Assembly: GCF_900109955.1 (NCBI RefSeq)
Contig: NZ_FOJB01000001.1
Span: forward strand, 2,604,001 to 2,668,000
DNA: 64,000 nucleotides
Direction: 5' to 3'
DNA from: Aliiroseovarius sediminilitoris
GTDB lineage: Bacteria; Pseudomonadota; Alphaproteobacteria; Rhodobacterales; Rhodobacteraceae
Under the pieces are notes generated by a model. It saw only the letters and a list, made by a program, of their open reading frames with translations, was not told where the DNA came from and made no database searches. Numbering within the stretch: position 1 is the stretch's first letter; each line of letters begins with the position of its first letter. The position numbers and the translations under genes were made by a program. Positions 2,891 through 27,637 of the stretch are shown here, in pieces.

Positions 2891-2894
2891 GGGA

Positions 2895-4580: not shown

Positions 4581-4585
4581 GGTGC

Positions 4586-5662: not shown

Positions 5663-5722
5663 CGAATTGTCTCCTGCGGAATTGGAAAGGCGTGGGTGGG
5701 CGGCCACCCACGCGAATGTGGC

Positions 5723-7090
5723 TTAGCCCTCAACCCGGTCGCCGATGACCGTCTGAGCGCCCTTCAAGCCGATCGGCAAGCTTTCGAGGTAGGCATTTGG
5801 CGTGCGACCATCGAAGGGAATGCCGTCAATGATATCCGCTGCGGGGGTCGGCGCTTTGAAGCCGTCGCTGTCCCAAGGGAAATCCGCCTCGTTTGCCAGA
5901 CCGTCATCCACAAGTGAACGCGCGGCTTCCAGATAGATGTCGGGACGATAAACGCTGGCCGCGACGTCCTTGAACCACGCGTCGGTTTGCGGATCAGCAA
6001 TCTGACCCCAGCGGCGCATCTGCGTCAGGTACCAGACGGCATCGGAGTAATAAGGATAGGTCGCATTGTGGCGGAAGAAGACGTTGAAATCGGGGATGTC
6101 TCGCTTGTCGCCTTTTTCAAATTCGAAGAACCCGGTCATGGAGTTCGCGATCACGTCGTAATCGGCCCCCACATACTCTGGTCGGCTCAGGATTTCGACG
6201 GCTTCGGGACGATTGGCGTTGTCATTTTCGTCCAGCCACATGGCCGCGCGGATCAGCGCACGCACTACTGCTTTGGTGGTATTGGGGTTTTCGGTGACAA
6301 ACTCGTCGGTCAGGCCAAACACCTTTTCCGGGTTGTTTTTCCAAAGCTGGTAGTCGGTGATGACCGGCACCCCGATGCCCTTGAACACCGCCTGCTGATT
6401 CCACGGCTCGCCCACGGAGTAGCCGTGGATCGTTCCGGCCTCCATCGTGGCGGGCATTTGCGGCGGCGGGGTCACGGAGAGCAGCACATCGGCGTTGATC
6501 TGGCCCGAGATGTTATCGGGGCTGTAGTAGCCGGGATTGATACCGCCCGCAGCCAGCCAGTAACGCAGCTCGTAATTGTGGGTCGAGACAGGAAAGACCA
6601 TCCCCATGTTGAATGGCTCGCCCTTGGTGTTGAATTCTTCGATGACGGGAACCAGCGCCTTGGCCGAGATCGGATGCTGCGGACGGCCATCCTCTAGCGA
6701 GGGGATATGCGGGCGCATCATGTCCCACACATCGTTAGATACCGTGATGCCATTACCGTTCAGGTCCATCGAAAACGGCGTCACGATGTGGGCTTCGGTC
6801 CCATATCCGATGGTGGCGGCCAGTGGCTGACCCGCAAGCATATGCGCACCGTCCAACTGCCCGTCGATCACGCCGTCCAGCAGGACTTTCCAATTGGCCT
6901 GAGCCTCTAGCGTCACAAACAAGCCTTCATCAAGGAAATACCCTTGTTCATATGCCACGGCGAGCGGCGCCATATCCGTCAGCTTGATGAAACCAATGGT
7001 CAGTTCATCCTTTTCAACGTCCAGCAACTCGGCCAAGGCTGGGCTGATCATCGCAGTTGTGGCTGCAAGGCCAAGGAGGAGAGGTCTCAT
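5723..7090 (-). CDS. nrtA: Nitrate ABC transporter periplasmic substrate-binding protein
   Basis: 455 residues, with a Sec signal peptide ([20 protein letters not shown]) that has no lipobox. The mature part is of the NrtA/CmpA type: a [22 protein letters not shown] start, [20 protein letters not shown], and [17 protein letters not shown], the family's ligand-binding strand. It captures nitrate or nitrite in the periplasm. The ATG at 7090 follows AAAGGA. It is the first structural gene after the attenuated leader (7144-7257). It resembles cytoplasmic NasS encoded just upstream, which is thought to derive from this family. Confidence 0.94.
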
Positions 7091-7143
7091 GTTTGATCCT
7101 TTCGAAGCACCCGATCCATCCAGTTGAAGACCGGGCGAAAAAC

Positions 7144-7179
7144 AAAAAAAGGCCGATCACTGACCACCGAACCATCGGC
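7144..7179 (-). terminator. Rho-independent terminator in the nrtA leader (attenuator)
   Basis: On the minus strand a six-pair stem (GCCGAT/ATCGGC, 7174-7179 and 7152-7157) with a 16-base loop is followed by seven consecutive T (7150 to 7144). It lies between the predicted promoter and nrtA, not at a gene end, so it would stop transcription before the structural genes unless antiterminated. The loop bases contain CCGATGGTTCGG, which could form a competing small hairpin. Read from the sequence; folding was not computed. Confidence 0.82.
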
Positions 7180-7186
7180 GGAAAGC

Positions 7187-7257
7187 GAGCGACCTTGCTC
7201 AGAACGTCCCTGTCATTGGGAGTAAATTCGTTGCGATCCACCCCGTTGTGGATGCAA
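7187..7257 (-). ncRNA. ANTAR-type leader RNA, probable NasT target
   Basis: Minus-strand RNA. Hairpin 1 (7257-7231) pairs UUGC-AUCCAC with GUGGAU-C-GCAA around a hexaloop AACGGG, with one bulged C. A hairpin near the terminator (7200-7187) pairs GAGC with GCUC around hexaloop AAGGUC. Both loops have A at position 1 and G at position 4, the known ANTAR recognition pattern. A weaker third hairpin (7221-7207, UCCC/GGGA around AAUGACA) lies between them and could be the true second stem because its linker is shorter. nasT and nasS are encoded immediately upstream, so NasT-dependent antitermination is the natural reading. Confidence 0.75.
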
Positions 7258-7261
7258 TCTG

Positions 7262-7290
7262 ACTATTGCTGCATTGCAGCGTGAACGCAA
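7262..7290 (-). promoter_or_regulatory. Predicted promoter of the nrt-nir-nas operon with spacer palindrome
   Basis: On the minus strand TTGCGT (7290-7285), a 17-base spacer and AATAGT (7267-7262) resemble a sigma-70 promoter. Transcription would start near 7255, at the foot of leader hairpin 1. The spacer is filled by the perfect palindrome GCTGCATTGCAGC (7268-7280, single central T). The same CTGCA-N-YGCAG core occurs twice upstream of the LysR-type gene (9747-9780). The boxes are weak individually; the fit with the leader structure raises confidence. Confidence 0.5.
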
Positions 7291-7355
7291 GATGACCGAG
7301 TGGACGAGTGCCGAAAAACAGGATGCACACGACGTCCTGCACAAAATTTGGTCAC

Positions 7356-8528
7356 TTAACGATCAGCAGGGTCAAATATGTGGCCATCGAAGAATTCGTT
7401 CGGCAGCAGAGTAAGCCCCCCACCCGCAGAGGCGACCGGCATGGCGTGACGAATCGCGCCTTCGACCTTCTCGGACGCGCCCGGCATGTCACATCCCGTT
7501 GTGCGCAGGTGTTTCCGGTGCAGATCCGAGCGGAATACCTTTGCGATCTTGTCCTTATCAAAAGGGGTGCCGCTGCCATGCGATTTGTGCAACTGTTCCG
7601 CAATCCACTTTGCCTGACTGCGCCATGGGAAACTGGCGGCACCTGAATGGAACTCAAGAAATCTTTCTACGTGGCGTTGCTCACCGCGCCCCGACACCGT
7701 CAAATGGCCCGACAACGCACGGTCGATCAATTCAGATGGGACATCAAGAAAGGCCTTGCGTGACAGAAGCTCGCTGGCCGTGGCGTGTGTTTCCGGGTTG
7801 GCCAGCCAGCGGCCCGCTTTCCATACCGCTCGCATGAGACGCCCCAACAAGTCTGGTTCTGTCTCGGCCCAATGTGTGCGGACAGCCAAAACCTTTTCCG
7901 GTGCAAAGCTCCAGATCGACCTTCCCGGCAATAGCAATGCGCCAGCGCCCTGTTCAACCGCAACGGATCCCCATGGCTCACCGACGCAGTATGCATCCAC
8001 GTCCCCGGCGGCCAGCGCATTTGCCATCAGGGGCGGAGGCACGGTGCGGATCACGATGCCTTCTGATCCAAGCGCCGAAGCGCGGCTCCAGTACCGTAAC
8101 AATTCCACGTGCATCGAGAACGGAAATGGCACACCAAACACGATGGGTCCGTGACTAACCTGCGCCAGCGCGTCAGCGGCACGAACTGGATCAGCGAAAT
8201 CGAACCCATATCCTGCGCTTCGCAACCGGTCTTCAAGCGGCTTGCCCACACCGATGACGTTGCCGTTTACCGACAGGACCGATACGGCCGACAAAGCTGT
8301 TGCGACCCCACCGAACCCCATCGCCATCGCGACCGGAAGTGGTGACAGCATATGCGCCGCATCCACGCTGCCAAAGGCCAACATGTCGCGAACCGAAGAC
8401 CAAGATGGGGCGGCGATCAGGTCAAGCGAGATCCCCTCAGCCTCGGCAAAGCCCATTTCCTGCGCGATGATCAGCGGGGCCGCATCCACCAACGGCATAT
8501 AGGCAACTGGTATCGAAACGGTCTTCAT
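7356..8528 (-). CDS. nasS: Nitrate/nitrite sensor NasS (cytoplasmic NrtA-like protein)
   Basis: 390 residues of the NrtA/CmpA fold but with no signal peptide (begins MKTVSIPVAYMPLVDAAPLIIAQ), as in NasS. It keeps the family motif DVDAYCVGEPWGSVAVEQ. In characterised systems NasS binds nitrate or nitrite in the cytoplasm and, without ligand, holds NasT inactive. The start overlaps the nasT stop by four bases (ATGA), so the two are made together. After it comes the leader of the transporter operon. Confidence 0.93.
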   Translation of the reverse strand: MKTVSIPVAYMPLVDAAPLIIAQEMGFAEAEGISLDLIAAPSWSSVRDMLAFGSVDAAHMLSPLPVAMAMGFGGVATALSAVSVLSVNGNVIGVGKPLEDRLRSAGYGFDFADPVRAADALAQVSHGPIVFGVPFPFSMHVELLRYWSRASALGSEGIVIRTVPPPLMANALAAGDVDAYCVGEPWGSVAVEQGAGALLLPGRSIWSFAPEKVLAVRTHWAETEPDLLGRLMRAVWKAGRWLANPETHATASELLSRKAFLDVPSELIDRALSGHLTVSGRGEQRHVERFLEFHSGAASFPWRSQAKWIAEQLHKSHGSGTPFDKDKIAKVFRSDLHRKHLRTTGCDMPGASEKVEGAIRHAMPVASAGGGLTLLPNEFFDGHIFDPADR

Positions 8529-9109
8529 CCCAAAAGCCCCGATGCCGTTACCAATGCCTCGGCGACATCCGCAACACGCCGCCCCTGGTCCATCGCCGTC
8601 TTTCGCAGCAAAGCATATGCCGCGCCCTCGTCCAGACCCTTGGCTTTCATCAACAGACCTTTGGCGCGGTCAATCACCTTGCGTTCTTCCAGTGCCAGCC
8701 GTGTCTCGGCCAGTTCGCTGCGCATTTGACGTATCATCGTAAAGCGCGCAATCGCGGTGTCTATGACCGGCTTTATCCGCCCCGGCGAAAGGCCGTCGAC
8801 CACATAGGCCGAGACGCCAGCCTCGATTGCTGCCTGCGCCAGACCGCCCGCCGCGCCGGACACGAACATGGCGACAGGGCGTTCCAACGGGCCAGATGCC
8901 AGTGTCAGTTCTTCCATCATGTCACGCGTGGGATTGTCGACATCGATCAGCACGATGTCCGGCAAATGGGCGGCGATCTTGCGGGCCAGACTGCTGGAAT
9001 TGTTGATGACGAACACGTCGCACCCGCAAGCATCCTTAAGCGCGTCGACGATGGCAATGGCGCGGTCGCGGTCCTCTTCCACGACGACTATGGTAAGGTC
9101 TTTGGTCAT
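8525..9109 (-). CDS. nasT: Antitermination regulator NasT (receiver plus ANTAR domain)
   Basis: 194 residues. The receiver-like domain (about 1-125) has acidic VVEEDRD and IVLIDVDNP with the likely conserved Asp near residue 56. The C-terminal ANTAR domain (about 130-190) has LEERKVIDRAKGLLMKAKGLDEGAAYALLRKTAM with its three-helix signature. It binds paired-hairpin leaders and prevents termination. The likely target is the leader at 7187-7257. The ATG at 9109 overlaps the stop of the upstream LysR-type gene by four bases, so it is translationally coupled to that gene as well as to nasS. Confidence 0.95.
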   Translation of the reverse strand: MTKDLTIVVVEEDRDRAIAIVDALKDACGCDVFVINNSSSLARKIAAHLPDIVLIDVDNPTRDMMEELTLASGPLERPVAMFVSGAAGGLAQAAIEAGVSAYVVDGLSPGRIKPVIDTAIARFTMIRQMRSELAETRLALEERKVIDRAKGLLMKAKGLDEGAAYALLRKTAMDQGRRVADVAEALVTASGLLG

Positions 9110-9666
9110 GGGACTGCGGTTGCCTGAGGGCGTGGTGCGATGCCGTTGGCCGGTTGTTCGTTGGAGTTTCGAAACTCACAGACCAGAAAGTCGATGAAGG
9201 CACGGGGCTTTGGTGCAAGGTTTCGTTTTTTAGCAAACATTGCGACATCGAATCCTTCGCCCTGAAAATCAACCTCACTGTCGGTCAGGTCCGGTGACAC
9301 GTCGACTTCGGGGTGTTCTTCCTTGAATTTCGGAAGCGCGGGGATCAGTTGCGATTTTCCGAATGCCGTAGAGGACGCGATTCTGAACCTACCGCGCGGA
9401 ATGCCATCCAATTTCATTATAAGAGCTTCGGCCTCTTTGTATTTCTCGGCCATAGCTCTGCATTTTTGATAGAATTCCTGGCCTTCCCGGGTCGGAGAAG
9501 CACCCGCTCTGGATCGGTTAAGCAGGCGGTCGTGGACATGATCCTCGAGCAAACCAACTTGCTTGCTGACCGCTGACGGGGTCTGTCCCATAGAACGCGC
9601 CGCGGCCGAAGTGCTTCCCTGCTCGACAACGGTCGCAATAATCGACATCTGCGCGGGAATGTTCAT
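9106..9666 (-). CDS. Short LysR-type regulator lacking most of the effector domain
   Basis: 186 residues against about 300 for the family. Residues 1-60 form the winged helix-turn-helix (SAAARSMGQTPSAVSKQVGLLEDHV), followed by the linker helix and the first part of the effector domain up to EGFDVAMF. The sequence then jumps directly to KKRNLAPKPRAFIDFLV, which is the usual C-terminal end of LysR proteins. About 100 central residues are missing in frame. The reading frame is otherwise open, and its stop overlaps the nasT start (ATGA), so it is still positioned as the first gene of a nasT-nasS unit. It may be a DNA-binding remnant or a constitutive mini-regulator. Confidence 0.8.
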   Translation of the reverse strand: MNIPAQMSIIATVVEQGSTSAAARSMGQTPSAVSKQVGLLEDHVHDRLLNRSRAGASPTREGQEFYQKCRAMAEKYKEAEALIMKLDGIPRGRFRIASSTAFGKSQLIPALPKFKEEHPEVDVSPDLTDSEVDFQGEGFDVAMFAKKRNLAPKPRAFIDFLVCEFRNSNEQPANGIAPRPQATAVP

Positions 9667-9746
9667 GTCACTTCAACCGCCTGTTCCAACCTGGCACGGG
9701 TCCTGTGCCGAATTGATAAGTTGTTAGCGCTCAAGTTCACGCCTGC

Positions 9747-9780
9747 TTCTGCAGTGCAGCATAGGTACTGCATCGCAGAA
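9747..9780. promoter_or_regulatory. Inverted repeat operator upstream of the LysR-type gene
   Basis: TTCTGCAGTGCAG (9747-9759) and CTGCATCGCAGAA (9768-9780) are inverted copies (11 of 13 positions) separated by eight bases. Each arm itself contains a CTGCA-N-N-GCAG palindrome. The same core occurs in the predicted nrtA promoter (7268-7280). The site lies between two divergent genes, the usual place for a LysR autoregulatory operator. Confidence 0.55.
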
Positions 9781-9803
9781 ACAGCAATAGACGAGGTGGT
9801 AGC

Positions 9804-10448
9804 ATGACAATCGCACGCTCAAAGAGTGGACCAGAGTTCGTTTTGGAAGCTGGCCGCACATTTTTTCATCAATCGCGAAACAAAATGCTGGACGTGCTTG
9901 CAAGGCGCAGGGTCTATCACAGGCCGTATCGCGAGCTTTCCGAACTCAGCGACCGGGATCTGAATGATCTGGGGATGGGGACGTTCTACCGCTTGCGACA
10001 TGAGCTAATCTTCGTGTTCAAGAAAGGCACTTCGGCGCACATAAACAATTTTGAACTTGGTCAACATGGGCGATACCGCACGAATGTCTGGGAATATCGC
10101 GGCGTCAACAGCCGTCACGGTAATCGCATGGAAGAACCGGCCCTGCATCCGACAGTAAAACCTGTGCAGATGATTGCAGATGCAATCCGGCAATTCCAAG
10201 GGGCGGCCACGTGGGTCGAAAAACAAGCAACCTATGCTCAACGAGGAACGCCTCAAAGGTATAATACTCGACGAGGCTTACCGCGACTTCACAGTGCGCG
10301 ACGGAGACCGGAATGTGACAGTTCCAATGGCGCAGGCAGTGATGCGTGCCCTGGCTGTCAATGCAGTCACGGGTCAACACCGGTCTCAGCGTTTGTTCGC
10401 GGAACTCTTGGGGTCAACGGAACGCGAAAACAAGCAAATGTCGGATGA
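9804..10448 (+). pseudogene. DUF1127 start fused to a DNA methyltransferase fragment
   Basis: The open frame is a composite. Residues 1-59 look like a DUF1127 (YjiS-like) protein ending YRELSELSDRDLNDLGMG. Residues 61-129 abruptly become a piece of a ParB-linked DNA methylase (RHELIFVFKKG, HGRYRTNVWEYRGVNS, ALHPTVKPVQMIADAIR). The catalytic and SAM-binding parts are absent. The rest of the frame reads out of phase through the next gene, so its sequence is noise. GAGG precedes the ATG, so a short DUF1127-like peptide may still be made. It is best read as two deletion joins in decaying accessory DNA. Confidence 0.72.
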
Positions 10449-11299: not shown

Positions 11300-12661
11300 C
11301 TACCACCGCGTTTCGGGCGATGCTAAACCTGTCAGCGCGCGGCCAGGGAATTGAAACACCGCCTCGAATCCGTCCGTCCGACCCTGTACCGGGGAGTGCA
11401 GTTCCAGCGTTGCCTGCGCCCCATCGACAATCGCCTGCACGATGGACAGGCCCAGCCCACTACCGCCTGACACAGTTTGCCCACGTTCGAAACGCCCAGT
11501 CAGCCCCGCCAGGGTTTCGGCGGCAAGTGGCGGGCCGTCGTTGATCACACTAAGAGTGTCACTCGTCAGAGTGATCTGAACAGGGCTGCCATCAATTCCG
11601 TGACGCAGCGCGTTCTCGATCAGGTTTCGCACGACAATCGCGAAGGCGTCGGGATCAAGATCCGACAACACGGGGTCATTCGGAAGTGAGCTTTGAATGC
11701 GCTCCGGACCTGCGGCCTTATCGAAGTCCGCAAGCACCATACTCAAAACGGGTCGCAGGTCCGACACCGCATCACGTCGCAAGCGACCTCCCTCGGCGCG
11801 CGCCAGTTGCATGAGTTTCTCGGAAAGGCGGGTCAGTCGCTTGAGCGCAACCTCGATCTCTGCCGCCCGCCCGGCTGCATCGGCATCGGTGGTTTCGGCC
11901 ATCAGCCTTTGGGTCTGCGCGAGTGCCGCCGCCACTGGAGTGCGCAGTTCATGCGCTGCGTTGGCGGTAAAGCTGCGCTCGGCCTCCAACGCGCGGCGCA
12001 AGCGGTCGAGAAGCTGGTTGACGGCCTCGGCCACCGGAATGATTTCGGCAGGCAGGTCGCCATCGCCCACAGCCGACAGGTCCCGCGCGCCACGGCTGGC
12101 GACGGTGTCGCCGAAACGGCGCACCGGGCGCAGGCTGTGGCGAACCATCAGCAGAGCCCCGATCAGGCCGAGCGGGACGACCACGATCAGCGGCAGTGCC
12201 AACCCCATCAGCGTTTCGCGTGCAACGTCGGCGCGATGGCTAAGTGGTTCGGCGACGGCGATGGTGATGGTGCCCTGAAGCGCTGCATCGTAATATAGTC
12301 GGTGCGTGGCCGTCTGTCGGAACCCCATCGCCTCGAACGCCGGAAAATCCGCGTCCTCAGCCGCGTGCGACCGTATCAGAACACGCCCCTGATTGTCGCG
12401 CACGATGTAGGTAAAGAACTCATCGTGTTCATGCAGGGTAGCTATGCGCTGGGTTATTCCTTCTTCTTCACGGCTGATGATATCCAAGGCAACCAACGGC
12501 AGGATACTCTGCGCGGTTTCCTCCAGCTTGGAATCGAACACCTCGTTCATTTCGTGGCGCAACAGGGTCGCGGTCGCCCATGCTGTGCCCAGCCAAAGCG
12601 CCGTCAGTCCGACACCAAGCGTCAAGGCCAGCCGTTCTTGCAGGGAACCGGGCCACCTCAC
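11300..12661 (-). CDS. Sensor histidine kinase
   Basis: 453 residues. A first membrane helix (about 10-33) is followed by a periplasmic sensor region, a second helix (LMGLALPLIVVVPLGLIGALL), then HAMP-like and kinase parts. The phosphorylated histidine is in FTANAAHELRTPVAA; the ATP site has NLIENALRHG and GGSGLGLSIV. It is of the QseC/TctE type. It starts with GTG at 12661 overlapping the response-regulator stop by four bases. The pair is divergent from the PepSY/b561/DUF2271 operon, which it probably senses for. The signal is unknown. Confidence 0.9.
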   Translation of the reverse strand: MRWPGSLQERLALTLGVGLTALWLGTAWATATLLRHEMNEVFDSKLEETAQSILPLVALDIISREEEGITQRIATLHEHDEFFTYIVRDNQGRVLIRSHAAEDADFPAFEAMGFRQTATHRLYYDAALQGTITIAVAEPLSHRADVARETLMGLALPLIVVVPLGLIGALLMVRHSLRPVRRFGDTVASRGARDLSAVGDGDLPAEIIPVAEAVNQLLDRLRRALEAERSFTANAAHELRTPVAAALAQTQRLMAETTDADAAGRAAEIEVALKRLTRLSEKLMQLARAEGGRLRRDAVSDLRPVLSMVLADFDKAAGPERIQSSLPNDPVLSDLDPDAFAIVVRNLIENALRHGIDGSPVQITLTSDTLSVINDGPPLAAETLAGLTGRFERGQTVSGGSGLGLSIVQAIVDGAQATLELHSPVQGRTDGFEAVFQFPGRALTGLASPETRW

Positions 12662-13317
12662 GCAGCACCCAAGCGGTAGCCGAGTCCGCGCACGGTTTCG
12701 ATCCGCTCCCGCCCCAATTTCTTGCGCAACCGGCTGACATGCACCTCAATCGTGTTGCTCTCGATATCAGATTCAAAAGAATAGAGGCGCTCCTCCAACT
12801 GTGCCTTGGACAAAAGCTGCTGCGGACGTTGCACGAAAGCTTCGAACAGTACCCATTCACGTGCCGTCAGCGACACAGGTTTGCCAGCTCGGTGAACCGA
12901 GTGCGCGGCAAGATCGATCTCCAGATCGCCCAGAGTGACCAGCGGGTTCGGGTTGCCAGCATACCGTCGCGCCACGGCACCGACGCGCGCGGACAGCTCG
13001 GACAGATCGAAGGGTTTGACCATGTAATCGTCGGCACCGGCGTTCAGCCCCTCGATACGGTCGCTTATCTGGTCAAGCGCCGTCAGGATAATCACCGGCG
13101 TCACGTCGCCCCGTTTGCGAAGTGCGCGCAGGAACGGCTGCCCACGCCCATCTGGTAGCATCAGGTCAAGAAGGATCAGGTCATAGGCCGCGACATCCAG
13201 ATATTCACCCCCCCTGTCCAGCCGCGTGGCCCAGTCTATGGAATGCCCGTCAGCGGCAATCTGGTCGCGTACCGCGGCTCCAAGCACCGTATCGTCTTCG
13301 ATCAGCAGCACACGCAT
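12658..13317 (-). CDS. OmpR-family response regulator
   Basis: 219 residues. The receiver domain has acidic EDD at 7-9, phospho-acceptor Asp51 in LILLDLMLPDG, and Lys in DDYMVKPF. The C-terminal winged helix has LTAREWVLFEAF and NTIEVHVSRLRKKL...IETVRGLGYRL. The ATG at 13317 was chosen because it begins at the conserved MRVLLIEDD; the longer frame to 13383 runs into the promoter region. Tandem and inverted TCAGG repeats in the divergent region (13370-13412) are likely binding sites. Confidence 0.94.
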   Translation of the reverse strand: MRVLLIEDDTVLGAAVRDQIAADGHSIDWATRLDRGGEYLDVAAYDLILLDLMLPDGRGQPFLRALRKRGDVTPVIILTALDQISDRIEGLNAGADDYMVKPFDLSELSARVGAVARRYAGNPNPLVTLGDLEIDLAAHSVHRAGKPVSLTAREWVLFEAFVQRPQQLLSKAQLEERLYSFESDIESNTIEVHVSRLRKKLGRERIETVRGLGYRLGAA

Positions 13318-13369
13318 ATCTGATTCCTGTTCCGTTTGTACCTCTTCTATCACTGGCAAAGCTGACATG

Positions 13370-13412
13370 CACCTGAAGCACAATACCCGCGCGCTTCAGG
13401 TGGGCGTCAGGT
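13370..13412. promoter_or_regulatory. Response-regulator binding repeats in the divergent promoter
   Basis: CACCTGAAG (13370-13378) and CTTCAGGTG (13394-13402) are a perfect 9-bp inverted repeat. In addition TTCAGGT (13395-13401) and GTCAGGT (13406-13412) are direct repeats one helical turn (11 bp) apart, the usual arrangement for OmpR-family tandem sites. The block lies between the response-regulator start and the PepSY gene start. Assignment to this regulator is inference. Confidence 0.55.
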
Positions 13413-13459
13413 CGGTGAGAGAAAAAGCCTCATGATCACGAGTTTCAGGAGATGGAACA

Positions 13460-13840
13460 ATGAAAAAATATCTTATGGCAACGACGCTTTTGGTTGGTGT
13501 TGGAGCGGCAGGTGTCGCTCTTGCCGATGATGATTGTCGGGTGCCAATGACCGACTGGCAACCACGTGAGGCGGTGCAGGCAATGGCGGAGGCCCAAGGA
13601 TGGACAGTGCGCCGGATCAAGACCGATGACGGCTGCTATGAAGTCAAGGGCCGCGATGCACAGGGTCGCAACATTGAAGTCAAGCTCGATCCCGCCACAC
13701 TGGATGTGGTCGAGTGGGAGTATGACGACGATGGTGACGATTATCGTGGCCGAGGCAAGAACGCTGCCCCAAGCGGGACCGTGGCGCCGCCGGACAATGG
13801 ATTGTTTACCCCCGGCGCACCACCGGTCGTTGAACAATGA
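13460..13840 (+). CDS. Periplasmic PepSY-domain protein
   Basis: 126 residues. A signal peptide (MKKYLMATTLLVGVGAAGVALA) is followed by a single PepSY-like unit: AMAEAQGWTVRRIKTDDGCYEVKGRDAQGRNIEVKLDPATLDVVEWEYDDD, then a Pro/Gly-rich tail. Such small PepSY proteins often accompany two-component systems and cytochrome b561 genes. Two cysteines (DDDCRVP and DDGCYEV) could form a disulfide. The stop overlaps the start of the b561 gene by four bases. AGGAG precedes the start. Function is not known beyond the context of electron transfer. Confidence 0.85.
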   Translation: MKKYLMATTLLVGVGAAGVALADDDCRVPMTDWQPREAVQAMAEAQGWTVRRIKTDDGCYEVKGRDAQGRNIEVKLDPATLDVVEWEYDDDGDDYRGRGKNAAPSGTVAPPDNGLFTPGAPPVVEQ

Positions 13841-14436
13841 TCCGCGTTTGGGATCCTCTGGTGCGACTTTTTCACTGGTCGCTGGTCCTTGCTTTTGCAA
13901 TCGCCTGGCTGACCGGTGATGAAAGCGAGGGCTGGCACATCTGGGCCGGTTATGCCGCTGCCAGTCTGATCGGCCTGCGGCTGGTCTGGGGGCTGATCGG
14001 CTCTCGATACGCCAGGTTTTCACAGTTCGTGCGCGGACCGGGGACCGTAACGCGTTACCTGCGCGACATGCTACGCGGCCGCGAGGCGCGGTATGTCGGC
14101 CACAACCCCGCCGGAGCGGTCATGGTTCTTGCGCTCCTCGTCACTCTGTCGGCCACTGCCTTCACCGGCTGGCTGATGGTCGAACCGGAGCGCATGGCTT
14201 ACCTGCCCGATCTGTCCCAAGTTGTTACACCGGCTTTTGCCGATGATGACACAGGCCGGGGAGGTGGCGGCGAAGCACTTGAAGAGGTGCATGAGGTGCT
14301 GGCCAATCTGACGCTGGTGCTTGCTTTGCTGCATATTGCAGGCGTCATTCTTGCGTCGCGCCGTCACCACGAAAACCTTCTTCGCGCTATGATCACCGGT
14401 CGCAAACGTGCTCCAGCTCCTAACGACATCGCCTGA
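13837..14436 (+). CDS. Cytochrome b561-type membrane protein
   Basis: 199 residues with four predicted membrane helices and the paired histidines expected for two b haems: His13 (RLFHWSL), His34 (GWHIWAGY), His151 (VHEVLANL) and His165 (LLHIAGV). It begins IRVWDPLVRLFHW, the typical start of the b561/Ni-Fe-hydrogenase b family. It would carry electrons between membrane quinol or the reductase fusion and periplasmic partners. It is coupled to the PepSY gene (ATGA) and followed by a terminator. Confidence 0.9.
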   Translation: MIRVWDPLVRLFHWSLVLAFAIAWLTGDESEGWHIWAGYAAASLIGLRLVWGLIGSRYARFSQFVRGPGTVTRYLRDMLRGREARYVGHNPAGAVMVLALLVTLSATAFTGWLMVEPERMAYLPDLSQVVTPAFADDDTGRGGGGEALEEVHEVLANLTLVLALLHIAGVILASRRHHENLLRAMITGRKRAPAPNDIA

Positions 14437-14486
14437 CCGCAAGGCGATACCCTGCAGACCACTTGTCCCGTTGGTTTTGCAGACTG

Positions 14487-14523
14487 GCCCCGCTGTCACC
14501 TCCAGTGCAGCGGGGCTTTTTTC
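14487..14523 (+). terminator. Rho-independent terminator after the b561 gene
   Basis: GCCCCGCTG (14487-14495) and CAGCGGGGC (14508-14516) form a nine-pair stem with a 12-base loop followed by a run of six T. It separates the PepSY-b561 pair from the DUF2271 operon, which therefore needs its own promoter. Confidence 0.88.
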
Positions 14524-14536
14524 TTGACCGACGGAA

Positions 14537-14579
14537 CCTGACGTCAGGCTGAAGCAAATTTTCCGGTCCCGTCAGGCTG
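14537..14579. promoter_or_regulatory. Palindrome and direct repeats upstream of the DUF2271 operon
   Basis: CCTGACGTCAGG (14537-14548) is a perfect 12-bp palindrome. GTCAGGCTG occurs at 14543-14551 and again at 14571-14579. The GTCAGG half-site matches that in the divergent promoter at 13406-13412, which suggests that both operons answer to the same response regulator. Inferred from sequence only. Confidence 0.5.
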
Positions 14580-14634
14580 GCATCAGCCGTGTCCAGCAAA
14601 CAGAACCTGAAACAAATCAAATAGGAGATTTCCC

Positions 14635-15105
14635 ATGAGAACCCTGTTATCCGCCCTTGCGCTGACCACCGCCCTGACCTCTCCGGCGCTGGCGATTGCC
14701 AAACCCGTCACATTGACCGCCAACATGAACCAATATGGCGGCGATGGCGCGTATCTCGCGCTTTATGTCACCGATGCGCAGGGCACCTATATGGGTAGCC
14801 TCTGGATGGCTGGTGGTAAGGCAAAATATTACGAACATCTCAGCGATTGGTATCGCGCCACCGCAGGCAATCCGGCCGAGATCAACGGCATCACCGGGGC
14901 CAGTGTCGGCGCCGGGCGGCAGTTGAAGATCACGCTTGATCTGGCCGATGCGCTGTTTGACGCAGGATATGAATTGCATATCGACGCCTCGGTCGAGGAC
15001 ATGCGCGACAGCCCGTCCGAAGTGGTCGTGCCACTGACCACTGAAGGCGCGGGACAACCGGTTACCGGGCGGCGGTACATCCGCGATTTCACCTACGACA
15101 TGTAA
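14635..15105 (+). CDS. DUF2271 periplasmic protein with flavinylation motif
   Basis: 156 residues. A Sec signal peptide (MRTLLSALALTTALTSPALA) precedes a DUF2271 domain. Residues 84-90 read NGITGAS, close to the ApbE substrate consensus D-G-hydrophobic-S/T-G-A-S/T, so Thr87 is a candidate site for covalent FMN attachment. The motif sits after SDWYRATAGNPAEI. An ApbE-like transferase is encoded two genes downstream and a flavin reductase between them. The likely role is a periplasmic flavin electron carrier, as described for DUF2271 proteins in extracytosolic flavin systems. N in place of D at the first position is a deviation. Confidence 0.82.
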   Translation: MRTLLSALALTTALTSPALAIAKPVTLTANMNQYGGDGAYLALYVTDAQGTYMGSLWMAGGKAKYYEHLSDWYRATAGNPAEINGITGASVGAGRQLKITLDLADALFDAGYELHIDASVEDMRDSPSEVVVPLTTEGAGQPVTGRRYIRDFTYDM

Positions 15106-15127
15106 GCCACCACGAAGGAGCCTTGCC

Positions 15128-17335
15128 ATGCTGCGCGCGCTGCACAAATTCCCTGGCCTGATTGCGGCTCTGCTGATCGTCGTCATGACCCTCAGCGGTG
15201 CCGTCCTGTCGGTTCTTCCGGCGCTGGAGGCCGTGCAAGCCCCCGCACAGTCCGAGCCTGCCTTAAGTGTGGCCACATTGGCCGAACGCGTAGCCGCGAC
15301 CTTTCCGGGGGTTGAGCAAATCCGCCGCGCGCCGTCCGGGCGGATTACTGCCTTTTATTTCGAAGAAGGTCGCCCCGGATCGGTGTTGATCGACCCTGCG
15401 ACAGGTGCAGGTCTGGCCGATTACGAGCCATCCGCGTTTCAACGCTGGATAACCAACCTGCACCGTTCGCTGTTTCTGGATGACGCAGGACGGCTGACCG
15501 CGGCGGCGGGGGCGGCATCGCTTCTGGTGCTGTCGATCTCGGGCCTGATGCTAACAGCGCGGCGGACAGGGGGCTGGCGACGTTTTGTCTCACGCCTGCG
15601 TGGCCCACTGATGGGACGGTTGCATGTCGAAGTGGCGCGGGTCACTGTCGCCGGGCTTCTCCTGTCTTCAGCCACCGCGCTGTTCATGACCGCCAGCACC
15701 TTTGATTTGCTCCCACAGGGCAGCGCCCCGGCGTTTCCCTCCAAGGTCAGTGAACAGACCGGTGCCGCGCCCGGCATGATGGCACTGCTGCGCGACACAC
15801 CGGTGGACAGCTTGCGCGAACTGACCTTTCCCTACCCCGATGACCCTACTGATGTGTTCATGCTCAAGACCAACATGGGCGAGGGCTATATCGATCAGGG
15901 AACAGGGGCGGTTTTGGTCTGGGCCGATACAGGCGCGTGGCAACGCTTCAACGAGACGATCTATATGCTGCACACGGGACAAGGCATGGCCTGGCTGGGG
16001 ATGATCCTGGGACTAATGGCGCTTGGTGCGCCGTTCATGGCCGCAACTGGCGTGGTCCTCTGGGTGCAGGCTCGCCGGGCACGACCCCCGATCAAAGGTA
16101 ATGTTGCGGCCGGACAGGCAGACACAATCCTGCTGGTCGGCAGCGAAGGGGGCAGCACATGGGGCTTTGCCGCGACCTTGCATGATGCATTGATGCAAGC
16201 AGGCCATAAGGTTCACGCGGCACCGATGTCGAGGTTTACGCCAGATCGCTATAGCCGCGCCGACCGGGTGATCGTGCTGGCCGCCACTTATGGCGAGGGC
16301 ACAGCCCCTGCCTCGGCCAAAGGTTTCCTTGATCGGCTGGCGGCCTTGCCAGGCGCCCCCGACATGCAGCTGGTTGTGCTGGGGTTCGGCGACAGCAAGT
16401 TCCCCGAGTTCTGCGCCTATGCTGCCGATGTAACCCGTTTGGCCGAGGAAAAAGGCTGGAAGCAATTGTTGCCGCTGGCAACGGTCGACCGCCAGTCGCC
16501 ACAGGAGTTCGCCCGCTGGGGCCGTGATCTGGGCCGCTCACTTGGTCAGCCATTGGAACTGTCACACAATCCGGCGATCCCGCGCAGTCATGCGCTGACC
16601 CTGATCTCGCGCCGCGACTACGGGGCCGAGATGCAAACCCCCGCCACGATCCTGCGCTTTGCCATTCCCAAGGTTGGATTTTGGACGCGAGTTGCCGGGC
16701 GAGCCTTCGGCCGGTTCTTATCAGGTGACTTGTTGGGCATCGTTCCCGAGGGGTCGCATGTGCCACGGTTCTATTCTCTGGCTTCCGGACGCAGCGACGG
16801 ATTTGTAGAGATCTGCGTCAGCCGCCATCCTGGTGGGCTTTGTTCAGGTCAGCTTATGGACCTGGCCGTTGGCGACAGCGTGCAAGGGTTCATCCGCCGC
16901 AACCCTGACTTCCAACCCGTTCGAGGGCGCAAGCCCGTGATCCTGATCGGTGCGGGAACCGGTATCGGCCCGCTGGCAGGGTTTGCACGCAGCAACAGTG
17001 CGGGCCGTCCCATGCATCTCTATTTTGGCGCAAGGCATCCCGACAGCGATCTTTTCTACGAGCGCGAAATGGAGGACTGGCAGAAAGACGGGCGGCTTAC
17101 CTCAGTCACCAGTGCCTTTTCGCGGACCAGCGCCCGCGCTTACGTGCAGGATGCTCTGCGCAGCGATGCTGAACGGATTGCCAAGCTGATCAGCGACGGA
17201 GCGCAGGTTTTGGTTTGTGGTGGGCGTGACATGGCCGCTGGCGTCACCGATGCACTGACCGATATCCTGGCACCCGCTGGATTGACGCCTGCAACTTTGA
17301 AAGCAGAGGGACGTTATGACGAAGATACCTACTGA
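15128..17335 (+). CDS. PepSY-TM / flavodoxin / FAD-NAD(P)H reductase fusion
   Basis: 735 residues. Residues 1-320 are a PepSY-associated membrane region with helices near 10-32, 125-143, 172-190 and 284-313 and candidate haem histidines His6, His112, His166 and His282. Residues 332-470 are a flavodoxin-like FMN domain (LLVGSEGGSTWGFA, AATYGEGTAP, GFGDSKFPEFC). Residues 490-735 are a CysJ-like FAD/NAD(P)H domain with RFYSLAS at 547-553, GAGTGIGP at 608-615 and an aromatic C-terminus (RYDEDTY). It would take electrons from NAD(P)H in the cytoplasm, pass them through FAD, FMN and b haems, and deliver them outside. It overlaps apbE by 20 bases. Confidence 0.9.
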   Translation: MLRALHKFPGLIAALLIVVMTLSGAVLSVLPALEAVQAPAQSEPALSVATLAERVAATFPGVEQIRRAPSGRITAFYFEEGRPGSVLIDPATGAGLADYEPSAFQRWITNLHRSLFLDDAGRLTAAAGAASLLVLSISGLMLTARRTGGWRRFVSRLRGPLMGRLHVEVARVTVAGLLLSSATALFMTASTFDLLPQGSAPAFPSKVSEQTGAAPGMMALLRDTPVDSLRELTFPYPDDPTDVFMLKTNMGEGYIDQGTGAVLVWADTGAWQRFNETIYMLHTGQGMAWLGMILGLMALGAPFMAATGVVLWVQARRARPPIKGNVAAGQADTILLVGSEGGSTWGFAATLHDALMQAGHKVHAAPMSRFTPDRYSRADRVIVLAATYGEGTAPASAKGFLDRLAALPGAPDMQLVVLGFGDSKFPEFCAYAADVTRLAEEKGWKQLLPLATVDRQSPQEFARWGRDLGRSLGQPLELSHNPAIPRSHALTLISRRDYGAEMQTPATILRFAIPKVGFWTRVAGRAFGRFLSGDLLGIVPEGSHVPRFYSLASGRSDGFVEICVSRHPGGLCSGQLMDLAVGDSVQGFIRRNPDFQPVRGRKPVILIGAGTGIGPLAGFARSNSAGRPMHLYFGARHPDSDLFYEREMEDWQKDGRLTSVTSAFSRTSARAYVQDALRSDAERIAKLISDGAQVLVCGGRDMAAGVTDALTDILAPAGLTPATLKAEGRYDEDTY

Positions 17336-18308
17336 TCTTGTGCGTCATGCCCTGAACGGCCCGACGATGGGCACCCGTTGGTCTGCGCTGTTCCATACCC
17401 CCGCAGGCGCTGACCTGGAACCAATCCGCGCTGCATTCACCGAAAGCGTGGACCTGGTTGACCGCCAGATGTCCACATGGAAACCCGAAAGCGATCTGAT
17501 GCGTCTGAATGGCGCGCCGGTCGGAACATGGGTTTCCGTGCCACCTGAACTGATGGAGGTTCTGGCAAAAGGGCTGGAGATCGGGCGGCTTTCGAATGGT
17601 GCTTTCGATATCGGTATGGGCGATGTCGTCACTGCCTGGGGGTTCGGACCACAAAAGGCAAACCCCAAGGCGATACGCACCACTCTCGGCAAGGCGCGCT
17701 CCCCGACCCACGAGGTTCTTTTGCTTGATCCCGATACGATGAAAGCCCGTAAATTGGCCCCGCTCACGCTGGACCTGTCAGGTATCGCCAAAGGCTATGC
17801 CGTTGACCGCATGATCGCCGTGCTAGGCCGTTTCGAAATCACCAATGCCCTTGTAGGCCTCGACGGTGAAATGCGCGCTTCTGGTGAACGGCCAGATGGC
17901 CAAGCATGGACCGTTGCCATTGAGCGCCCCGACTATGAAACGCGGACACCATTGTCGATCATCGAGTTGACCGATGCTGCTGTCGCCACATCAGGCGATT
18001 ACCGTCATTGGATCGAAGCAGGTAGGAAACGATTCTCACATACGATGGACCCGGCCCGCAGCGGCCCTCTGACGGGGGCGCCTGCATCGGTGACCGTTCT
18101 TGCGAAAACCTGCATGGAAGCAGACGCGTGGGCCACGGCCCTCATGGTTTCAGGGCAGCAGAAGAGCGAGATCTGGGCCAAGGAATTTGGACTAACCGCC
18201 GTGTTTGTCCACCGAGATGGTGACACGCTGCGACAGGCGCATGTCGGAGGATCACATAAAGGCGGCGCTGCGGAGGTTTGCCATACCCGGCAAGTTGGTT
18301 TGCGGTAG
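17316..18308 (+). CDS. apbE: FAD:protein FMN transferase (ApbE family)
   Basis: 330 residues with the family motifs: TMGTRWS, GAFDIGMGDVVTAWGFG, LTLDLSGIAKGYAVDRM, ATSGDYRHW, SHTMDPARSGP and ADAWATAL. ApbE attaches FMN to Thr or Ser of target proteins such as the DUF2271 product. Unlike most ApbE proteins it has no signal peptide or lipobox. The frame cannot be extended upstream to gain one, because 17316 is the first start codon in frame and already lies inside the reductase gene. The enzyme may act in the cytoplasm before export, or a non-standard start may be used. Confidence 0.92.
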   Translation: MTKIPTDLVRHALNGPTMGTRWSALFHTPAGADLEPIRAAFTESVDLVDRQMSTWKPESDLMRLNGAPVGTWVSVPPELMEVLAKGLEIGRLSNGAFDIGMGDVVTAWGFGPQKANPKAIRTTLGKARSPTHEVLLLDPDTMKARKLAPLTLDLSGIAKGYAVDRMIAVLGRFEITNALVGLDGEMRASGERPDGQAWTVAIERPDYETRTPLSIIELTDAAVATSGDYRHWIEAGRKRFSHTMDPARSGPLTGAPASVTVLAKTCMEADAWATALMVSGQQKSEIWAKEFGLTAVFVHRDGDTLRQAHVGGSHKGGAAEVCHTRQVGLR

Positions 18309-20275: not shown

Positions 20276-21736
20276 TTAGGGTTGTGTCAGCGCCGCAAAG
20301 GCCTGGTCATATACCCCGATCACAGGCTCTTGCCGCAGGATCCTGTCAAAATCGGTGAACACGGTATGAAGGTGCGCTTTGCTTGTGAAACTTTCGCAAA
20401 CCACCACCAGGTTTGGCGTGTTCGAGGAGGCCCGAACCAACGCCCAAGAACCGCTTTCAAGTTGAACGCGCGCGCCGTTGGCGGTCAGTATGTCCACGAT
20501 CTTCTGGCCTGCTATCGTATCACCGCGGAGCTGCATCTGCCGAAAGACGGCCGTTAGCCGTTCAACGACTGTGTATTTCTGATCATCGGGACATGCAGGT
20601 GACAGGGTGGGAGAGCACCAACTGGAAGGCAGTCCGGCGACTATGTCTGAAAGGCACGAGCCGGGTTGATGGTCCATCAAACGACACAGCGCGACCACCG
20701 CACGCAAAGCGCAATCATAGCCGCGCCCGACGGGCGGTCCGAAATAGATGTGACCAGATTTTTCAAATGCAGCCAGCGCGCCTGAAGATCGGAGTTTTTG
20801 CTTCACATGGCTGTGGCCTGTTTTGCAGTATTCAACCGTCGCGCCACATGATGACAGAACAGTGTCGATGGCGAACAAACCGGTGGATTTGACATCCACA
20901 AGAAAATGCGCATCCGGGTGTGCGACCGCTAGATCGCGCGCAAGCAAAAGCCCCAGCTTGTCCGCGAAAACCGCTTCTCCCGTCTCATCGACAATGCCGA
21001 TCCGGTCTCCGTCACCGTCCAATCCAATGCCGAAATCCGAACGGCTTTCCCTGACGGCCTTCCCCATATCGTCGAGCATTTCCAACGCTTCCGGGTTCGG
21101 GTTGTAGTGGGGAAACCTATGATCCAACCGACAATGTCGTTCGACCACATCAACGCCCAAACGGCGCAACAGCGTCGGCGCAAAGGCACCGGCAGTTCCA
21201 TTTCCGGTTGCGCAAACCACGCGCAGGGGGCGCGTGATCGTGTCATTTGCAACCAAGTCGTCAAGATAGGCGTCGCTTACACCGGAAACCGGCGTGATCT
21301 TCCCTCCGTCATTCGCGACAAAATCTCGACCAAGGATGATATCTCTCAATTCCGCCATCTCGTCCCCGCCATGGGTGCAGGGGCGGTCAAACCCGACCTT
21401 GATACCGGTCCAGCCATTTGGGTTGTGGCTGGCAGTCACCATGACGGCTGCGTCCACATCCAGATGGAATTGCGCGAAATAGGCCATAGGGGACAAACAC
21501 ATGCCAATGTCACATACTTGCGCTCCGGTCTGGACAAGACCATCACTCAGCGCTTGTTTCATGGCGGGCGAATAGCTTCGGTGGTCGTGGCCGACAATAA
21601 TCTTGCGCCCGACGTTTCGGCGCGCCATTTGCGTGCCAAGCCCCATTCCGACGGCGGTCATTCCATCCAGATCGATATCCTCAGGATATCGCCAGCGGGC
21701 ATCATATTCGCGGAAGCCGCTTGGACAAATGCGCAT
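20276..21736 (-). CDS. Phosphomannomutase/phosphoglucomutase
   Basis: 486 residues of the alpha-D-phosphohexomutase family. The phosphoserine loop is VTASHNPNGW, the metal-binding loop GLDGDGDRIGI, and the phosphate-binding C-terminal part has VRASSNTPNLVV. It interconverts hexose 6- and 1-phosphates (mannose or glucose) to supply nucleotide sugars for surface polysaccharide. The start overlaps the kdsA stop by one base (TAATG), and it is the last gene of the kpsT-kpsE-kdsA unit. Which hexose it prefers cannot be told from sequence alone. Confidence 0.9.
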   Translation of the reverse strand: MRICPSGFREYDARWRYPEDIDLDGMTAVGMGLGTQMARRNVGRKIIVGHDHRSYSPAMKQALSDGLVQTGAQVCDIGMCLSPMAYFAQFHLDVDAAVMVTASHNPNGWTGIKVGFDRPCTHGGDEMAELRDIILGRDFVANDGGKITPVSGVSDAYLDDLVANDTITRPLRVVCATGNGTAGAFAPTLLRRLGVDVVERHCRLDHRFPHYNPNPEALEMLDDMGKAVRESRSDFGIGLDGDGDRIGIVDETGEAVFADKLGLLLARDLAVAHPDAHFLVDVKSTGLFAIDTVLSSCGATVEYCKTGHSHVKQKLRSSGALAAFEKSGHIYFGPPVGRGYDCALRAVVALCRLMDHQPGSCLSDIVAGLPSSWCSPTLSPACPDDQKYTVVERLTAVFRQMQLRGDTIAGQKIVDILTANGARVQLESGSWALVRASSNTPNLVVVCESFTSKAHLHTVFTDFDRILRQEPVIGVYDQAFAALTQP

Positions 21737-22572
21737 TAAACGCCCCTCAGCGGTCGATCTTTTGCAAGACCGTCAAAGGCGGCCAGATCCGCAATAAGCC
21801 GCGCCATCTGGTCAAGCGGGATCATGTTCGGTCCGTCCGACGGCGCGGTGTCCGGGTCTGGGTGGGTCTCGATGAACACCCCGGCAATCCCCAATGATAC
21901 CGCCGCGCGGGCGAGCACCGGCGCAAATTCGCGCTGACCACCGGATGCGGCCCCCTGCCCGCCAGGCATCTGGACCGCGTGGGTGGCATCCATGATAACT
22001 GGATGGCCCAGCGCCGCCATCTGCGGCAGGCTGCGCATATCGGTGACGAGAGTGTTGTATCCGAAAGAGGTGCCGCGCTCTGTCAACATCACCTGCATGT
22101 TGCCTGAATTGACGATCTTGTCGACCACGTGTTCCATATCCCATGGTGCCAGAAACTGACCTTTCTTGACGTTGATTGGCTTCCCGGTCTGCGCGGCAGC
22201 AACCAGAAGATCTGTTTGACGGCACAAGAAGGCGGGGATTTGAATGGCATCGACGACCTCCGCCACCTCAACACACTGATCGGGCAGATGCACATCCGTC
22301 AGGACCGGCACATCCAGTTCATTCTTGACCGCCGCAAGCACCGCGAGCCCGTCAGCCATTCCCGGCCCCCGCACGCCGGAAAGGGAGGTACGGTTTGCCT
22401 TGTCAAACGATCCCTTGAAGATATAGCCAATCCCACAATCGCGGCAGACCCGTGCCATGTGTTCGGCGATCCGAAGCGCATCATCGCGCCCTTCCAACTG
22501 GCACGGGCCTGCAATAATGGTCAGTGGGCGAAAATTGCCCACATGCACGTCCCTGACGACGACATCCCCCAT
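21736..22572 (-). CDS. kdsA: 3-deoxy-8-phosphooctulonate synthase (Kdo-8-P synthase)
   Basis: 278 residues, the normal length. Motifs include IIAGPCQLEG, YIFKGSFDKANRTS, GVRGPGM, the conserved CRQTDLL, NVKKGQFLAPWDM, ERGTSFGYN and IETHPDPDTAPSDGPNM. It condenses phosphoenolpyruvate with arabinose 5-phosphate. Inside a capsule export operon it probably feeds Kdo into capsule or its linker. It could instead be a duplicate of, or the only, copy used for lipopolysaccharide. It lies one base after kpsE. Confidence 0.95.
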   Translation of the reverse strand: MGDVVVRDVHVGNFRPLTIIAGPCQLEGRDDALRIAEHMARVCRDCGIGYIFKGSFDKANRTSLSGVRGPGMADGLAVLAAVKNELDVPVLTDVHLPDQCVEVAEVVDAIQIPAFLCRQTDLLVAAAQTGKPINVKKGQFLAPWDMEHVVDKIVNSGNMQVMLTERGTSFGYNTLVTDMRSLPQMAALGHPVIMDATHAVQMPGGQGAASGGQREFAPVLARAAVSLGIAGVFIETHPDPDTAPSDGPNMIPLDQMARLIADLAAFDGLAKDRPLRGV

Positions 22573-22573
22573 A

Positions 22574-24932: not shown

Positions 24933-24961
24933 TGGGTGCCCCGGCACTGCTTTCGCCTAAC

Positions 24962-26427: not shown

Positions 26428-26577
26428 AAGATGCCCCGTCTAGTTCCGGTTTTACAAACAGGTCGCGTCCCGGCGATGAAAGGCTGGGGCGCGACCTTTG
26501 TGTTCGTTCAGTTCAGGAAATACTTCAACTGGGGTCAAACGACAATGGTCGAGAGCAATATCTGTTTCACATATGGT

Positions 26578-27627: not shown

Positions 27628-27637
27628 GATCCTGGCC

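Follow-up and report, generated by a model that had tools for sequence, protein, structure and literature searches.

We analysed a stretch of 64,000 nt from Aliiroseovarius sediminilitoris (contig NZ_FOJB01000001.1 of assembly GCF_900109955.1, positions 2,604,001-2,668,000; hereafter the window), in which a cluster of seven genes at 11300-18308 may encode a self-regulated system that passes electrons from NADPH to a flavin-bearing protein in the periplasm. A first-pass annotation of the sequence had listed these genes and their domains, and all seven open reading frames (ORFs) are indeed present, with every named domain exceeding its cut-off in a Pfam scan (Table 1). The kinase and regulator genes run leftward, while the genes for a small PepSY protein, a b561-type cytochrome, a DUF2271 protein, a fusion protein and ApbE run rightward. 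The pepSY and b561 genes overlap by 4 bp, and the start of apbE overlaps the stop of the fusion gene by 20 bp, a spacing kept in 96 of the 104 loci with both genes (window included). The likeliest start of the regulator is the ATG at 13317 and not 13383, because operator 1 spans the longer start.

Table 1. Features of the cluster, in positions of the window
Feature	Coordinates	Strand	Details
Sensor histidine kinase, QseC/PmrB-like	11300..12661	-	2CSK_N + HisKA + HATPase_c
Response regulator, OmpR/PmrA-type	12658..13317	-	Response_reg + Trans_reg_C; open frame extends to 13383
Candidate operator 1	13362..13410		CTGAC-N6-CTGAA-N17-TTCAG-N6-GTCAG, between the divergent regulator and pepSY genes
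Small PepSY_2 protein	13460..13840	+	Hydrophobic signal-like N-terminus; position DbfQ-like
b561-type cytochrome	13837..14436	+	Ni_hydr_CYTB; optional among relatives
Terminator-like hairpin and T-run	14486..14522	+	-24.6 kcal/mol, z -4.85
Candidate operator 2, one mismatch	14538..14586		Upstream of DUF2271
DUF2271 protein	14635..15105	+	Signal-like N-terminus; N84-G-I-T-G-A-S90
PepSY_TM + flavodoxin + FNR fusion, 735 aa	15128..17335	+	PepSY_TM, Flavodoxin_1, NAD_binding_1
ApbE (FAD:protein FMN transferase), no signal peptide	17316..18308	+	Triad S226, H242, D270

To assess conservation, relative loci were retrieved by DUF2271 similarity alone, and the best 80 of 92 were used. The fusion was found in all 80, some of which are cut by contig ends, and its association with DUF2271 is not due to chance. 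Gene content was counted within 7 kb of the fusion at the 66 loci with more than 6 kb upstream: PepSY and DUF2271 are present in all 66, ApbE in 65, the regulator in 64, the kinase in 63 and b561 in eight. The kinase of L034 and both the kinase and regulator of L066 lie just outside the 7 kb limit, and L076 shows neither gene. In L066, about 5.5 kb (4451-10001) separates the regulator-adjacent PepSY gene from DUF2271. Given these counts, the regulator is core among close relatives and b561 is not. The gene order proposed for checking by the first-pass annotation is conserved, but its view of a dedicated regulator as uncommon and of b561 as a core component does not fit these loci. The cytochrome is commoner in the window's own family, occurring in 13 of 29 loci (L003-L031, with short flanks). 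Among 198 genomes of that family, the window's own included, 112 match the fusion somewhere, mostly in the reductase part alone; besides its own genome, 37 have full-length matches of at least 40% identity. Loci L100 and L102, which also carry the system, are from Rhodobacter capsulatus. Across 109 relative loci, six pairs carry identical fusions, five of them being one record retrieved twice. Two loci (L095 16402-18930 and L104 16398-19226) hold a separate module of kinase, regulator and b561, in L104 with PepSY too, which lacks DUF2271 and begins about 3 kb from the main cluster. These separate modules suggest that b561 travels with the PepSY/two-component part.

The two candidate operators provide a possible link between the regulator and the rightward genes. 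Operator 1 was scored in 75 regulator-pepSY regions, consisting of the window and the 74 of 80 relatives with both genes placed. It is exact in 39, has one mismatch (of 20 positions) in 20, two to four in six, and five or six in ten. Matches with at most one mismatch, found in 59 of 75 regions that are related sequences and not 75 independent cases, compare with none in 375 simple base shuffles, where no shuffle has fewer than five mismatches; the regions range from Rhodobacterales to Rhizobiales. The half-box occurs with a spacer of 6 in 69 of 75 regions, and with any other spacer from 2 to 11 in three at most. Operator 2 precedes DUF2271 with at most one mismatch in 21 of 79 upstream regions (window included), the other 58 having six or more. 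We infer that the regulator encoded in the cluster binds these four-pentamer operators. The genome as a whole contains 29 exact half-operator matches, versus five with the reversed pattern; three lie in the cluster, and among 20 others inspected 17 fall inside ORFs and three are intergenic, with no further target claimed.

The hairpin and T-run between b561 and DUF2271 were revealed by folding against 200 shuffles, a promoter/terminator scanner limited to loops of at most 8 having given no match for it. Since the hairpin separates these two genes, the five rightward genes probably form two transcription units, pepSY-b561 and DUF2271-fusion-apbE. This layout bears on the idea that b561 feeds electrons of the quinol pool into the same carrier, giving the chain two inputs. 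The gene's overlap with pepSY downstream of operator 1 is consistent with such a role, as is a Ferric_reduct/FAD-binding protein in a like place in plasmid versions of the cluster; yet b561 was not found in 58 of 66 loci and in the window the hairpin cuts it off from DUF2271, and we regard a second input as improbable.

The first-pass annotation had also counted the small periplasmic PepSY protein among the members of the electron chain. DbfQ of Vibrio cholerae is reported to bind the sensor domain of its kinase (PMC12714742). The small PepSY protein is placed beside the kinase as DbfQ is, which makes a role as kinase partner likelier than one as an electron carrier. Two or more PepSY proteins occur in 28 of 66 relatives, several with a long acidic tail. 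The kinase has an ExxE motif (E37-x-x-E40) just past its first membrane helix, at positions 37-40 in 53 of 75 rows, and the same motif has been noted in iron-sensing kinases such as BqsS (PMC12666569). It may instead be a feature of the QseC-like kinase family; ExxE anywhere in the sensor part was observed in 63 of 75 rows versus a mean of 42 after shuffling.

The fusion protein offers a plausible path for electrons across the membrane. Its reductase half is of the CPR/CysJ-like diflavin type, both by sequence and by Foldseek fold, with flavodoxin, FAD and NADPH domains in CPR/CysJ order; the FAD domain has no Pfam hit at 1e-3 but is covered by CysJ, CPR and FNR matches. Residues S665-R666, which as in CPR would act in NADPH binding, are invariant in 75 of 75 genome-contig rows. 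The membrane half of this gene, between DUF2271 and ApbE, matches PF03929 (PepSY_TM) with an E-value of 8.1e-35. It also matches FoxB, a PepSY-type two-haem reductase (PDB 7ABW) whose 382-residue chain lacks a flavodoxin/FNR part, unlike the cluster fusion; the whole-sequence E-value of 1.2e-4 is summed over weak stretches, the best single one reaching 0.52. Three histidines, H6, H112 and H282, align to histidines of the 7ABW chain, while H166 lies outside the printed alignment. All four occur without exception in the 105 full-length fusion rows, the window's among them, and in 75 of 75 genome-contig rows, and are predicted haem ligands. Loss of these histidines in homologues had been named in advance as evidence against the proposed route from NAD(P)H through FAD, FMN and haem to a flavinylated DUF2271, and none was seen; the route is supported by the homology of both halves and by these residues. 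A structure model of the fusion has a mean predicted local distance difference test (pLDDT) of 85.1 and a predicted template modelling score (pTM) of 0.57, and its domain placement is therefore not trusted.

At the periplasmic end, the NGITGAS sequence noted in the first-pass annotation does span positions 84-90 of DUF2271 and includes both T87 and S90. That annotation proposed Thr87 as the flavin mononucleotide (FMN) acceptor. The published ApbE motif, D-x-x-[S/T]-G-A-[S/T], places FMN on its last residue (PMC12052999), so Ser90 is the predicted acceptor instead. S90 is present in every one of 41 aligned rows and T87 is conserved in at least 90%; the window protein has N84 where the motif has D, and at this position the 80 genome-contig relatives have N in 36, D in 34, S in eight and A in two. 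The core [S/T]GA[S/T] is kept in all 80 genome-contig rows and the motif in 108 of 109 relative loci overall, and among the seven cluster proteins it occurs in DUF2271 only. A signal-like hydrophobic N-terminus was found in 103 of 107 DUF2271 relatives (first 35 residues, mark 1.6; lowest 1.44), or 73 of 78 without repeated loci, and none of the 107 has a twin arginine within its first 20 residues. The structure model (pLDDT 81.0) is largely made of beta strands and puts the motif in a loop of lower confidence. A fold search in PDB gave no match at an E-value of 0.001 or below (best 0.022), and sequence searches also found nothing convincing. Modification of a DUF2271 protein by its ApbE has been proven in Escherichia coli, with both signal peptides removed (PMC8238504).

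The cluster ApbE has the hallmarks of a flavin transferase and has no export signal. It matches solved flavin transferases, and its triad has the spacing reported for Vibrio ApbE (241/257/285; PMC12052999) and is kept in 74 of 74 rows with the region, two cut rows being excluded. Only 9-21 residues precede the first conserved motif. An 11-residue stretch of mean hydropathy 1.6 before that motif was found in none of 103 relatives, even in the longest open frame, three being too short to measure. By the first 35 residues, one of 103 reaches the mark (L035, 1.65), inside the domain, and none of 75 does without repeated loci. ApbEs serving exported proteins are described as periplasmic and usually membrane-anchored (PMC12052999). 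The genome's own second ApbE has a twin-arginine, hydrophobic start; by eye, its neighbours resemble nosY and nosL, and the genome's single FMN_bind match is about 7 kb away. An ApbE census covering 34 of the 37 relatives with the full-length fusion found no ApbE besides that of the cluster in six, and those six show no FMN_bind protein. In unfused DUF2271 systems, 7 of 25 ApbE frames have a hydrophobic stretch within 70 residues upstream, with no start codon chosen; as the 25 include fused members and one ApbE-DUF2271 frame, we make no claim on the unfused ApbE N-terminus. That frame type is seen in L144 (5716-7263), where a single open frame matching both ApbE and DUF2271 has a signal-like N-terminus, in contrast to the signal-less cluster ApbE.

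Because this ApbE lacks an export signal, FMN would most likely be attached in the cytosol to the still-unfolded DUF2271 precursor before Sec export. ApbE needs no more than a seven-residue tag (PMC12052999) and could therefore act on an unfolded precursor. The absent signal peptide would also fit an ApbE that modifies some cytosolic protein while DUF2271 is not flavinylated in these bacteria, as a signal-less, cytosolic Klebsiella ApbE serves a soluble fumarate reductase (PMC12052999). We consider this very unlikely: DUF2271 alone has the motif in a search that covered the seven cluster proteins and not the whole proteome, all 80 relatives keep it, and the six relatives in which the cluster ApbE is the sole ApbE found show no FMN_bind protein.

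Clues to the electron acceptor come from genes beside the cluster in relatives. In 70 loci longer than 12 kb, with ORFs grouped by BLAST and Pfam/NCBIfam checks made on five VIT1 and eight ATPase ORFs, a VIT1-type gene is found at 14 and a P-type metal ATPase at 12 (13 ORFs); these are raw counts, and some loci are close kin (e.g. L054 and L055, L095 and L104). The gap between VIT1 and the edge of the cluster match is 11-60 bp in L061, L062, L081, L082, L083, L085 and L098, and for ATPases it is 11-91 bp in L054, L055, L056, L063, L066, L073 and L075. The 13 ATPase ORFs have the motifs TPCP (six), SPC (four, three with HEGGT) and CPC (two, near L034 and L081), and one is a fragment; on inspection of these motifs we rejected a general assignment as copper pumps. 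P1B-4 enzymes (SPC/HEGGT) have been linked to iron, and TPCP is taken to mark P1B-5. The published P1B signatures include CPC, CPH, SPC and PCP, and the P1B-5 enzyme Nia, a transporter of Ni2+ and Fe2+, is regarded as detoxifying (PMC4932525). Some P1B-5 enzymes carry a hemerythrin tail (PMC9388753); for such a tail, L111 scored 23.7 bits against a cut-off of 25.3, and none was found in L054 and L066. An unfused version in Caulobacter is reported as iron-responsive (PMC3751524) and as a Fur target whose mutants grow poorly in ethylenediaminetetraacetic acid (EDTA) (PMC11870441). Together the VIT1 and P1B neighbours hint at iron, which is our best guess for the acceptor, with uptake and protection both possible. 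An acceptor such as copper, quinone or an oxidised periplasmic protein in place of iron is an unlikely alternative that would fit the CPC-type ATPases near L034 and L081 and the support that CrpH, a PepSY_TM protein, gives to a heme-copper oxidoreductase (PMC13038864), though ten ATPase ORFs are SPC or TPCP and VIT1 is the most frequent neighbour family.

The cluster is also found on plasmids. In a plasmid collection, 99 records match the fusion, 92 of them over 80% or more of its length. Of the 99, 70 are classed as conjugative and 38 come from Pseudosulfitobacter, with nearly uniform scores among those listed. Eight plasmid regions were viewed, and the following counts are from the seven with annotation. 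A VIT gene is present in six (five at the end of the gene row and one 1.3 kb further) and a TPCP ATPase in three. The operator has zero or one mismatch in the five alphaproteobacterial regions but is missing from the two gammaproteobacterial regions (five and six mismatches). Five viewed plasmids have another cytochrome-type protein in the b561-like place, and the three tested have Ferric_reduct and FAD-binding domains. The gene row of a Klebsiella michiganensis plasmid (L177, 4528-12045) and of a Marinobacter plasmid (L179, 4529-12048) shares this layout and consists of kinase, regulator, ferric-reductase-like protein, PepSY, DUF2271, fusion and VIT1.

These neighbours can also be accommodated by a response to metal excess, in which the kinase and PepSY protein would sense Fe(II) or another metal and the chain would keep exported metal reduced or protect the envelope instead of serving iron uptake. 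The VIT1 and P1B genes that several relatives carry no more than 100 bp from the cluster, the TPCP and SPC motifs of most ATPases, the presumed detoxifying role of Nia, the conjugative plasmids and the kinase ExxE motif all speak for it. Against it, iron toxicity should increase if Fe(II) is made while the periplasm is oxic, Fur represses related PepSY-like clusters, which are thus on under iron lack (PMC8238504), and ExxE is common in shuffles too. On balance we judge metal excess to be a less probable explanation, if the strongest of the alternatives; the odds of these overlap and do not sum to one.

We favour, at a probability of about 0.55, a self-regulated PepSY-type flavinylation system in which NADPH supplies electrons to the periplasm, with ferric iron as the most likely target of reduction. 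Electrons would pass from NADPH to FAD in the FNR domain and FMN in the flavodoxin domain, then to two b haems on H6, H112, H166 and H282 of the PepSY_TM part, and from the haems to FMN on Ser90 of the exported DUF2271 protein and finally to ferric iron or a ferric chelate. ApbE would attach that FMN to the unfolded cytosolic precursor, with Sec export following. The small PepSY protein would act on the sensor kinase, reporting the state of the periplasm (metal or redox), and the phosphorylated regulator would bind the operators at 13362-13410 and 14538-14586 and switch both transcription units. A more specific version is offered tentatively, at somewhat less than even odds: the signal-less ApbE flavinylates the unfolded precursor in the cytosol and Sec exports the FMN-bearing chain, with no FAD export needed, while the regulator reads PepSY as a metal sensor and drives the chain, and plasmid islands often carry their own VIT/P1B transporters.

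Several observations weigh against this interpretation. The co-occurrence figures all come from relatives picked by similarity to the window's DUF2271, and the VIT1 and ATPase counts have no chance level, with an ABC-transporter family nearly as common near the cluster (13 of 70). VIT1 and P1B ATPases are mostly regarded as exporters of cytosolic metal (for Nia, PMC4932525), which fits metal excess as well as uptake. CPC is the motif of two of the 13 ATPase ORFs, the P1B-4 (SPC) type is reported to move Co, Ni or Zn (PMC4932525), and no VIT1 or P1B gene is present among the ORFs inspected beside the window copy. A cytosolic form of the early-studied Salmonella ApbE failed in vivo (PMC12052999), and the partner ApbE of the DUF2271 protein tested by Meheust et al. 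naturally carries a signal peptide (PMC8238504). The Klebsiella and Marinobacter plasmid versions have no annotated apbE or operator; as their TGAS motif is kept without apbE, a host ApbE may serve their DUF2271. We found no experiment on this gene set in the literature.

Beside the cluster in the window itself, genes that by eye resemble a nitrite reductase and nitrate ABC transport set (nitrate-assimilation-like) lie upstream on the minus strand at 461-8528, and an ABC-2 permease lies downstream at 18.4-19.8 kb. Further on, the minus strand encodes what looks like capsule polysaccharide genes at 20276-24947 (phosphoglucomutase/phosphomannomutase, a DAHP_synth_1 protein that by eye is Kdo-8-phosphate synthase, a 601-aa protein with no Pfam hit, and an ABC ATPase), followed at 25129-27660 by a Na+/H+ antiporter 1 protein and an ArsP_1 permease.

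As the first-pass annotation stated, DUF2271-PepSY-ApbE systems are known in outline; it did not mention the operators, the hairpin, the lack of a signal peptide on ApbE or the metal-transport genes near the cluster in relatives. Meheust et al. (Meheust 2021, PMC8238504) define PepSY-like systems by a PF03929 or PF16357 protein within a flavinylation-associated cluster, and report a NAD-binding domain on 1077 PepSY-like genes and VIT1 in 167 clusters. The present cluster resembles these in its PF03929 protein, its ApbE and its DUF2271 with [S/T]GA[S/T] (TGAS, 87-90), and differs from the systems as described there by its signal-less ApbE and its dedicated two-component system with conserved operators. 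It falls outside their extracytosolic-ApbE filter, which belongs to the ApbE/FMN-bind screen and not to the PepSY definition: none of 103 relatives has a signal peptide, and that screen discarded signal-less ApbEs (PMC8238504). Caulobacter CC_3059-CC_3063 (PMC3751524, PMC11870441) shares a PepSY-family transporter, DUF2271, ApbE, a sulfite-reductase-like flavoprotein and the iron link, but these are separate genes with DUF4198 and Fur control, and the sections of these reports at hand mention no two-component system.

On the regulatory side, DbfQRS of V. cholerae likewise sets a small exported PepSY protein beside its kinase and regulator, and some species encode it on the opposite strand; the small PepSY gene here lies within four genes of both. 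DbfQRS controls biofilm genes (PMC12714742), whereas the cluster module is next to an operon for predicted electron export. BqsRS, from Pseudomonas aeruginosa, is similar in its pentamer-N6-pentamer box, sensor ExxE and PepSY neighbours (PMC4682146, PMC12666569, PMC12714742). The BqsR box is TTAAG-N6-TTAAG (PMC4682146), while the cluster box is [G/T]TCAG-N6-GTCAG, with two direct-repeat pairs facing each other; the cluster has no TTAAG-N6-TTAAG box and cannot be called a BqsRS orthologue, the 5-N6-5 layout alone being common to both. FeuN, considered as a possible PepSY precedent, was dropped because none of the papers listed joined it with PepSY.

Published work already covers the parts, the overall concept and the VIT1 link; what appears new is the dedicated two-component switch with its operators and the signal-less ApbE with an exported DUF2271. 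A literature search, which did not cover supplements, found no description of either, nor any work joining PepSY, a two-component system and cytochrome b561. Plasmid copies in hosts from roseobacters to enterobacteria suggest a portable trait. The pairing of a signal-less transferase with a signal-bearing substrate makes it testable whether protein flavinylation can precede Sec export, and the conserved operators are a ready reporter for what turns on such systems, which would help settle the acceptor.

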